Origin: Nitrosomonadales bacterium
GTDB taxonomy: Bacteria > Pseudomonadota > Gammaproteobacteria > Burkholderiales > SG8-39
Direction: 5' to 3'
NCBI GenBank assembly: GCA_005240145.1
Contig: SBAS01000019.1
Location: 1 to 64,000 of the forward strand
Length of the DNA: 64,000 bases
Shown here piece by piece: positions 9,659 through 12,786 of this stretch. The translations under genes and the position numbers were made by a program. A model generated the notes under the pieces. The model was given only the letters and a program-made list of their open reading frames with translations. It did not search any database and was not told where the DNA came from. The first letter of the stretch is position 1. The number at the start of each line of letters is the position of its first letter.

Positions 9659-9756
9659 GTAAAGATCCTCTGAAACTCGCGAAAGGGAGCGGATTATACG
9701 CATGCATTTCGCTTTGCGGGGGCATTAAAGCAAAGGGAACAGTGTTACAGTATTTT

Positions 9757-10221
9757 ATGCCCACCATACGCCTGGAACAGGACGTCTTCGAGGGCCTGCA
9801 GAAGCTTGCCAAACCCTTCGTCGATTCCCCGAGCATGGTGGTCCGCCGCCTGCTCGAAGAGCGCGGCGTCTTGAGCAAGGTGCCGGAAGCGGCGAGAGGA
9901 GCACGTGCCGCACCGGATGCGCTGACGCCGCAAGCCACTTACGAAAAGTATCTCCTGCTCATCCTGCTCAAGGAGTTCGACGGCCAGGGCCACAAGCGCG
10001 ACGTGACGCACGCCATCGTCAAACGCATGATGAAGGACGGGCACATCGGCGCGGCGGACCAGGAACTGGTCAGCACCGGCGAAACCAAGGGCGAGAACAC
10101 CATCACCTGGGCGCGCAACGCGCTCAAACAGCGCGGCTACATCAGCCGGGCCGCGCGCCGCGGAATCTGGGAATTGACCGCCGAGGGCAAGAGTGCGGCA
10201 GGCAAGGTCGTGCTTCCATAA
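9757..10221 (+). CDS. small DNA-binding-like protein with a Mrr N-terminal (winged-helix)-like domain
   Basis: KYLLLILLKEFDGQGHKRDVTHAIVKRM...ETKGENTITWARNALKQRGYISRAARRGIWELTAEGKSA resembles the Mrr_N domain; N-terminus PTIRLEQDVFEGLQKLAKPF...VVRRLLEE is RHH-like; alternative start 9742. Confidence 0.55.
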   Translation: MPTIRLEQDVFEGLQKLAKPFVDSPSMVVRRLLEERGVLSKVPEAARGARAAPDALTPQATYEKYLLLILLKEFDGQGHKRDVTHAIVKRMMKDGHIGAADQELVSTGETKGENTITWARNALKQRGYISRAARRGIWELTAEGKSAAGKVVLP

Positions 10222-10583
10222 CGGGGCCCGGTCGGAGGTGTTTCAGATTGAGGTCATGATTCCTTAGCGAAGCAGCCATTCGGGTCAGGTCAACACTAGG
10301 TCCGCTAGAACCACAACGTGCCCAAAATGTCGGAAATCAAGCCATCGCTCTGTAGCGCGAATAACTCGCCCCGCCTACCGCTTGACTTGATTCCCGTATA
10401 CGTATTCGACCGATACCGTTTCTCCTGTTGGTTTCTTGACTACTCCACGACCATGAAATTTTCCATCCGAAAATGGGCCGCTCGGCCGATTTGCATCCGG
10501 ACTTCGTACTTTCCGATCTTCTCGAGCACGCCGCCAGTGCCCTCCCTAGCGAAAGGCTATCACGCAGTACTGCTGCTATCTAC

Positions 10584-11045
10584 TTAGGCAGCAGCCCGCC
10601 TGCGGCTGGCGCGGCCGGATGGGCTTCGACGAGCCCGTTTCGCCCGAAGAATGGAACGCAACGCGTCGTTGACTGATTCAGAATTCGGAAACGCCTTCTG
10701 CACGTCCGGATCCAGCAGAACGACGTTGGTTCCCTCTTCCTGAATCCGCTTGTAATACTTGCCTCTGACGCCCTTCGTATAGTCGAAGTTGTATTCGGCA
10801 CGCATCTCGTCGGCCACAGCCTTGCTCTTAAGTTTCATGGCGTTTGCGCTCGTGCCAGGCTTGGGGGTGTCGAACTTTCTGCGGAAGGCTTCAAGATCGA
10901 AGCTGCCTTTGCCACGGCGCAGCTTGCCGCGTAGCGGCGCGAGGAGCGCCCGGTTTATATGTCTTCCGCGCACGCCTTTGGATTTGAAATCCGAGAGCCT
11001 GTACTCGGGCCGCAGTTCGTCAATCGTCTTAGCCTTATTTTTCAT
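10584..11045 (-). CDS. uncharacterised third gene of a TA operon, with tandemly duplicated DELRPEY...KGVRG unit
   Basis: ATGA overlap with the upstream ParE-like stop; internal duplication MKNKAKTIDELRPEYRLSDFKSKGVRGRHINR / MKLKSKAVADEMRAEYNFD-YTKGVRGKYYKR; second unit has its own ATG at 10838. Confidence 0.65.
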   Translation of the reverse strand: MKNKAKTIDELRPEYRLSDFKSKGVRGRHINRALLAPLRGKLRRGKGSFDLEAFRRKFDTPKPGTSANAMKLKSKAVADEMRAEYNFDYTKGVRGKYYKRIQEEGTNVVLLDPDVQKAFPNSESVNDALRSILRAKRARRSPSGRASRRRAAA

Positions 11046-11386
11046 AGATTGCCCGTACCGACATTTGTATCACCGAGTAGCCAGGCAGGGATGTCGCGCT
11101 GCCCATGCATCACGCGCCAGACGTCGATGTGGTCGTCGCGCTCGATGTAAAAGACCAGATGCGGGAAGCGCGTCAGTGGCCAAGAACGCAGACCGGGGAG
11201 GTCCAATTCGTTTGCGTATCGAGGCGAGCCGGTGGCTGGATGGCGTGCGATGTGGAGATAGGCCTGTTCCAGGGCTTCGATGAAACCCAGCGCGGCCTGC
11301 TTTGCGTCCTCGCGCAAGTAGTGCCCGATGGCTTCATCGACGTCCCGGTTGGCGAGCTCGCGCGGGATGACGGTCTTGGACTTCAC
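11042..11386 (-). CDS. type II toxin, RelE/ParE family
   Basis: RDVDEAIGHYLREDAKQAALGFIEALEQAYLHIARHPATGSPRYANELDLPGLRSWPLTRFPHLVFYIERDDHIDVWRVMHGQRDIP. Confidence 0.9.
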   Translation of the reverse strand: MKSKTVIPRELANRDVDEAIGHYLREDAKQAALGFIEALEQAYLHIARHPATGSPRYANELDLPGLRSWPLTRFPHLVFYIERDDHIDVWRVMHGQRDIPAWLLGDTNVGTGNL

Positions 11387-11622
11387 CCCCGAGCGCGTCG
11401 CTGGACGCGCTTGCGCAGCGCGCCGAAATAAGCGCCATTGGCTGGTGCCGCCTGAGCGGAAGCGGCGCCGTCCAGCAGCAAACCGCGCAGATGCAACCGA
11501 TCCGCATCCTTGCGGATCAACTCGCGCACGTATTCGCTGCTGGTGCCGTAGCCGCGCCGGGTGACCTGCTCATCCACGAAATCCTTGAGCGATTCGGGCA
11601 GGGATATGTTCATCGTGCTCAT
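11383..11622 (-). CDS. type II antitoxin, ParD-like ribbon-helix-helix
   Basis: MNISLPESLKDFVDEQVTRRGYGTSSEYVRELIRKD; GTGA overlap with the toxin gene. Confidence 0.9.
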   Translation of the reverse strand: MSTMNISLPESLKDFVDEQVTRRGYGTSSEYVRELIRKDADRLHLRGLLLDGAASAQAAPANGAYFGALRKRVQRRARG

Positions 11623-11640
11623 GGACTGATGTTAAGCGCC

Positions 11641-11660
11641 TTGGCAAAATTTGGCAAGAT
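11641..11660. promoter_or_regulatory. candidate ParD operator: 10-bp tandem direct repeat
   Basis: ttggcaaaat/ttggcaagat (9/10 match), about 20 bp upstream of the parD-like start codon. Confidence 0.45.
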
Positions 11661-11700
11661 GGCCTGATTGAACCGCTCTACACAGGTCTACGGCCTCGCG

Positions 11701-12786
11701 CTAGCCGCCTGCGCTACGGTATTTCGCGATCGCGCCCTTATGCAATGTCATGCCGTGCCCGGGCCGGTCGGGGATGCGGATGTGGCCGTCCTTGCACAGC
11801 GGCAGTTCCTCGAACAGGTCGGGCGGCATCCAGTCCATGAGCTCGACGAGAAAACCGTTCGGGATCGCGCCGCTGACCTGGATTGAGATTTCGTACACGA
11901 CGTGCGGCGAAACCTGCACGCCGTGGGCCGCCGCCAGGCGCGCGATCCTGAGCGTTTCGCTGAAACCGTTGGCGCGGCACACGTCGGGCATCAGGTAGCG
12001 CGCAGCCCTGCGCTCGATCAAGTCCCTGAATTCGTATCGGTTGTAATGGTTTTCCCCGGTCGCTACCGGGATAGCGATCGATTCGGAAACCAAAGCGCAA
12101 GAAAAGTTATCGTCGGAGCTCACGGGCTCTTCGTACCAGACGAGGTCGAAATCCTCGAGTTGGCGCGCCTGGCGAATGTTGCCCTCGACATCGAGCCTCT
12201 GGTTGACGTCCACCATCATGCGCACGCCGGGGCCGAGGGCCTTTTTCACCGTCTCGACGCGCTTGCGGTTGGCGAGCGGGTCGGGATCGTGGATCTTCAT
12301 TTTGTAGTAGGCACATCCCATACCCGCGTAGCGCTCGGCTTCGGCGACAAGGTCCGCCTCCCTGTACTTGCCCCAACCGCCGCTGCCGTAGCAGGCCACG
12401 CGGTCGGTGACAGCGCCCCAGAGCTTGTACAGCGGCAGCTTCGCCGCCTTGCCGGCGATGTCCCACAGGCCGATGTCGAGCGCCGAGAGTGCCATCCCCG
12501 CGATGCCGACTCGCCGCACCCCGCGGTCACCGCGATACATCTTCTCCCACAGACTCTCGACCGAGCGCGGGTCTTCGCCGAGCAGCAGGGGCTTGAGGCG
12601 CGTCTCGAGATAGACGAGGACCGATTCCGCGCCGCCGCCGCCGAAGATGAAGCTGTAGCCCAGGCCCCGGATGCCCTCGTCCGTCGCGATCTCGGCCACC
12701 ACCAGCTTGTGGTGCGCAAACTCCAGCGCCATCTGCCTGGAAGTCGGCACTGTAAGGACGCAGCTATCGATTGCGGTGATTTTCAT
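11701..12786 (-). CDS. mandelate racemase/muconate lactonizing enzyme family (enolase superfamily) protein
   Basis: YYKMKIHDP, MMVDVNQRLD, WYEEPVSSDD, PVATGENHYN, YLMPDVCRANGFSE, VSPHVVYE. Confidence 0.92.
   Translation of the reverse strand: MKITAIDSCVLTVPTSRQMALEFAHHKLVVAEIATDEGIRGLGYSFIFGGGGAESVLVYLETRLKPLLLGEDPRSVESLWEKMYRGDRGVRRVGIAGMALSALDIGLWDIAGKAAKLPLYKLWGAVTDRVACYGSGGWGKYREADLVAEAERYAGMGCAYYKMKIHDPDPLANRKRVETVKKALGPGVRMMVDVNQRLDVEGNIRQARQLEDFDLVWYEEPVSSDDNFSCALVSESIAIPVATGENHYNRYEFRDLIERRAARYLMPDVCRANGFSETLRIARLAAAHGVQVSPHVVYEISIQVSGAIPNGFLVELMDWMPPDLFEELPLCKDGHIRIPDRPGHGMTLHKGAIAKYRSAGG

Follow-up and report, generated by a model that had tools for sequence, protein, structure and literature searches.

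A third gene behind parDE that appears to be an in-frame fusion of toxin-antitoxin remnants

On the minus strand of a 64,000-nucleotide stretch of Nitrosomonadales bacterium DNA (contig SBAS01000019.1; the whole stretch is called the window here), a parD-like gene, a parE-like gene and a third ORF follow one another as in a three-gene toxin-antitoxin (TA) operon. Is the third protein a working member of this module? The original prediction regarded it as an accessory antitoxin, regulator or chaperone of a ParDE pair, which arose by duplication or fusion and might exist in a full-length and a short form. The gene arrangement that inspired this view was found as described: parD and parE overlap by 4 nt (GTGA, 11383-11386), parE and the third ORF share another 4 nt (ATGA, 11042-11045), and an in-frame ATG is located inside the third ORF at position 10838 (Table 1). 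Our comparisons indicate that the third ORF is an accidental in-frame fusion of remnants from three other TA systems, and nothing in them points to a role in ParDE.

Table 1. Features of the parDE locus and of the mosaic third ORF (positions in the window)
Feature	Positions	Strand	Description
parD	11383-11622	minus	79 aa, RHH antitoxin, intact
parE	11042-11386	minus	114 aa, GTG start, toxin, intact
Third ORF	10584-11045	minus	153 aa, apparent in-frame chimera of antitoxin fragments
5' fragment of a BrnA-type antitoxin gene (putative)	10973-11048	minus	Third-ORF residues 1 to ~26
C-terminal fragment of an AbrB/MazE-type antitoxin gene	10880-10972	minus	Third-ORF residues 25-55
Linker, ~20 bp	10860-10879	minus	No homologous DNA among the loci compared
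brnT 3' end, another reading frame	10830-10859	minus	..HERKRHET*, overlaps the brnA start
Complete BrnA-type antitoxin gene	10584-10838	minus	84 aa, native ATG 10838, brnT body deleted

The first two genes evidently form an ordinary ParDE pair, as had been proposed. ParE matched the Pfam family ParE_toxin (PF05016; 1.4e-12, residues 8-98), while ParD matched TIGR02606 (2.2e-11) with 43.6 bits, narrowly under the cut-off of 46.2, and gave a weak match to Pfam RHH_1/ParD. The parD product is 65-82% identical in amino acids to the ParD proteins adjoining the closer ParE homologues, and the parD-parE order is the same in relatives. At the DNA level, homology of this block to relatives spans positions 11049-11675 and reaches 84.7% with G048 (L068). 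It ends 4 nt short of the ATG of the third ORF, so the ATGA overlap sits on a junction, where the last codon and the stop of parE are also located. A promoter-like site lies just 5' of parD (11657-11629), with one match found against 0.7 expected, which is no excess over chance. The closest parE by DNA (G048, L068:1501-2948) is split by approximately 1.1 kb containing a substrate-binding-protein-like reading frame. In G045, brnTA is present about 1 kb upstream of parD, as separate genes.

The third ORF, whole or by halves, matched no family in Pfam, NCBIfam or PHROGs. A full-length match was confined to its own genome, and the fusion was absent from about 480 related genomes searched as well as from phage and viral contig collections; in the plasmid search, the first half had no match and the second half had a single weak one (Kovacikia). 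Homology to other genomes is instead distributed in sharp-edged DNA blocks, namely the parDE block, the abrB fragment (10880-10972) and the brnT tail with brnA (10639-10859). None of 98 family genomes matched across any junction, each relative covering one side per junction. The codon-position GC signal of the fused ORF is weaker than in host genes, and the structure model of the full fusion (pLDDT 47) was not good enough to search for similar folds.

The second half (residues 70-153) bears out the antitoxin-like character ascribed to the third ORF, since it is homologous to antitoxins that partner BrnT. Its frame is free of stops and frameshifts, the near-invariant residues of the family are kept, and it is 55-62% identical in amino acids over the full length to the closest BrnT-partner antitoxins. 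Homologues with roughly 40-62% identity were found in about 40 of the 149 relatives searched, most of them directly behind brnT with the antitoxin start within the brnT end, and toxins upstream of these relatives matched Pfam BrnT at 2.6e-25 and 1.1e-26. The pairing of COG2929 with the RHH antitoxins COG5304/COG3514 has been described previously (Makarova et al., 2009; PMC2701414). The second half thus shares with BrnT/BrnA type II systems its place in relatives, directly behind BrnT with the usual short overlap; it differs in that brnT is deleted here and that its antitoxin subfamily matches no Pfam or NCBIfam model (NCBIfam assigned no A1 member to an antitoxin family, and Pfam likewise gave none for P0002). 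Because no BrnA model was matched, we call the second half BrnA-type by gene context. Internal initiation at position 10838, foreseen as the source of a short form, is plausible because this ATG would be the native brnA start. A PDB sequence search with the family profile matched no solved structure; designed helical proteins retrieved there (E ≥ 0.04) were rejected as chance hits. The second half was also modelled with AlphaFold to look for a ribbon-helix-helix fold, but the model was of low confidence (pLDDT 60, pTM 0.30) and likewise too poor to search for similar folds. An intact brnT-brnA pair, whose antitoxin is 46% identical to the orphan, is carried elsewhere in the same genome (G000:C74:28720-28956; L002:1486-1999), and this pair is a possible target for cross-neutralisation.

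A subfamily profile (A2) run over named genomes retrieved 172 loci, of which 80 were kept (L128-L207); a contig scan with the single protein instead of the profile returned nothing. The loci belong mostly to uncultured Nitrospirota, Deltaproteobacteria and Planctomycetota, with some Betaproteobacteria. Where enough upstream DNA was available (106 loci), brnT was intact in 65, truncated or frameshifted in 25 and missing in 16, these counts being approximate as at least five genomes occur in both collections. Toxin decay with the antitoxin kept is therefore common in this BrnT-partner subfamily, about 40% of the loci being without an intact upstream brnT. The locus thereby draws attention to a group of antitoxins that has no Pfam or NCBIfam model and often no intact toxin.

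What is left of brnT at our locus is its last eight codons and stop, out of frame with the third ORF. The BrnT proteins of L005, L007 and L011 end in the peptide HERKRHET* or a close variant of it, with frame and position likewise agreeing, and 19 nt (GAGCGCAAACGCCATGAAA) are exact in L007 and L009. Across the six frames of the whole window, a peptide of this type followed by a stop is unique. Apart from this C-terminal tail, a search for the BrnT body in 10190-11060 found nothing credible. L009 has independently undergone an internal brnT deletion ahead of a retained antitoxin.

The middle of the third ORF has a different source. An AbrB/MazE antitoxin aligns by its C-terminal part with residues 25-55 (77-84% amino-acid identity), and the DNA is 85-89% identical over 80-93 bp to abrB of L105, L104, L116 and L115. 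Just residues 40-70 of an 80-aa antitoxin are kept; the 5' half with the AbrB DNA-binding domain is missing (the Pfam MazE_antitoxin region covers residues 3-42), and so is the PIN toxin, for which no credible remnant was found downstream of the relic (best E 1.1). In intact relatives, the antitoxin matches Pfam MazE_antitoxin (5e-8 and 1e-8) and the toxin Pfam PIN (1.3e-5), with PIN after this antitoxin in seven loci. The likeness to AbrB/MazE-PIN (VapC-like) modules therefore lies in the C-terminal antitoxin part, but neither the PIN toxin nor the DNA-binding N-terminal half is present here. In the congeners G012 (L104) and G002 (L105), an intact abrB-PIN pair occupies the same site in the same orientation, beside the gene for a protein with an Mrr N-terminal domain (Mrr_N) and rpsP; hence, the abrB fragment is best read as a positional relic. 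In G010 (L106), the site is essentially empty, with some 17 bp between the Mrr_N and enolase-like genes. The flanking rpsP, Mrr_N, enolase-like and ffh genes keep a conserved order on both sides.

The beginning of the third ORF, up to residue 26 or so, aligns with the N-termini of brnA-like proteins from L123-L126, with 53-67% identity and E-values of 3e-4 to 3e-3 per genome. It probably derives from a brnA subfamily other than that of the second half, an assignment made on about 27 residues and pairwise scores. This segment possibly also includes three or four terminal codons of its own brnT (IYE), a trace that was read by eye and is only suggestive. The resemblance between the two units of the third protein, noticed in the original prediction, is real and beyond chance, as their BLOSUM62 local score of 61 was reached in 0 of 5,000 shuffles. 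However, when compared by pairwise scores on a 30-residue segment, with no tree, the first unit scored 77 with L028 (its best match among A1 members) and 66 with both L030 and L031, versus 57 with the second unit; it was also closer to L032, L010, L021 and L005 than to the second unit. No direct DNA repeat of at least 14 nt was found in 10150-11750. The two units would thus be homologous because both are brnA-derived, and since they come from different subfamilies, an internal duplication does not hold; the AbrB fragment and brnT tail between them and the lack of a DNA repeat led us to reject it too. Of the proposed origin by duplication or fusion, the fusion part stands, while the duplication of one unit gives way to two different brnA-type genes.

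The locus very probably consists of TA debris, with an orphan antitoxin left behind and coupled to parE. The mosaic make-up, the loss of brnT and PIN, the intact parDE genes, the intact 84-aa frame and the absence of the fusion elsewhere can be read from the sequence itself, and the following events would account for them. The variable gap, bounded by the Mrr_N gene adjoining rpsP and by the ffh side of the conserved neighbourhood, would be a TA graveyard. An ancestral abrB-PIN module at the site would have left the C-terminal part of abrB, and a complete ParDE pair would have inserted into the gap. Illegitimate recombination could have joined three pieces in frame: a brnA start, the C-terminal part of abrB(-PIN), and a complete brnA preceded by the final brnT codons. 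The fused ORF may now be transcribed with parDE from the promoter-like site. Translation coupled to the parE stop (ATGA) would yield the fusion, and initiation at 10838 would yield the 84-aa protein. The functional core of the 153-aa product, if any, would be these C-terminal 84 aa, an orphan BrnA-type antitoxin that could still bind BrnT-family toxins (anti-addiction) and would take no part in ParDE neutralisation. Some points weigh against a debris origin: for an ORF to stay open across three joins takes luck (odds of 1 in 10 to 1 in 30 in our own very rough estimate), the brnA part, free of stops and frameshifts, may reflect selection or just a recent origin, the first 26 residues are assigned on so short a segment, and a draft genome of 130 contigs could hold a chimeric assembly. 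Overall, this is mostly an ordinary instance of TA decay and fusion, though a well-resolved one. It illustrates that decay can produce a convincing look-alike of a three-gene TA operon, complete with a repeated protein, its stop/start overlap and apparent internal repeat having arisen by the joining of relics of unrelated modules. It also makes TA turnover traceable at one site among congeners, which is empty, holds abrB-PIN, or holds debris and parDE.

Selection could instead have kept the fusion as an orphan antitoxin, for instance for anti-addiction against incoming BrnT under the parDE promoter. We consider this unlikely, even though all three joins are in frame and the brnA half is complete with its near-invariant residues, because the fusion occurs in one genome only, which gives no measure of selection, and brnA genes orphaned by brnT decay are frequent even where no fusion has taken place. 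In Klebsiella, antitoxins are retained after toxin loss and some have inhibitory activity (PMC7192599). Our locus resembles these decayed loci in the antitoxin kept after toxin loss. What sets it apart is the in-frame fusion of the orphan with pieces from two other antitoxin genes, together with its link to a foreign parDE. It is quite improbable that the in-frame pieces of two to three antitoxin genes make up a selected composite antitoxin, coupled to parE and directed against several toxin families; if true, this would be a new antitoxin evolved by shuffling TA scrap. An assembly artefact of a draft metagenome bin is slightly less probable still: the contig number and the junctions seen in no other genome would fit it, but gene order is conserved on both flanks, the abrB relic agrees with the abrB-PIN module of congeners in position and orientation, and pieces as short as these (76-93 bp) are, in our judgement, unlike typical contig misjoins.

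Least credible of all is that the third protein is a true accessory of a three-gene ParDE system, formed by internal duplication and made in long and short forms: the ATGA overlap with parE, the significant similarity between the units and the internal ATG agree with it, but a third gene was absent behind parE in 18 of 18 other genomes with ParE homologues, the units come from different brnA subfamilies and are separated by an AbrB fragment and a brnT tail, and the family of the second half partners BrnT, its homologues belonging to BrnT operons. Lack of conservation beside TA genes had been named beforehand as one result that would refute this claim, and the third ORF is not conserved beside ParDE. 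The extra gene of PaaR-PaaA-ParE systems is a conserved upstream transcriptional regulator. Those systems (PMC8630535) have in common with our locus three genes including a ParE toxin; they differ in that the extra ORF here is downstream, not conserved and made of debris.

The Mrr_N protein (9742-10221, plus strand) adjoins rpsP in most congeners examined, and a weak RHH match below threshold was seen at the start of its L104 homologue. Between this gene and the fused ORF, about 330 bp (10252-10580) are without recognisable homology; one frame gave a MORN match below threshold (0.012). A congener has, within the same variable gap, an open frame (L105:4496-4939) that by eye resembles part of a molybdenum hydroxylase and would be more debris.
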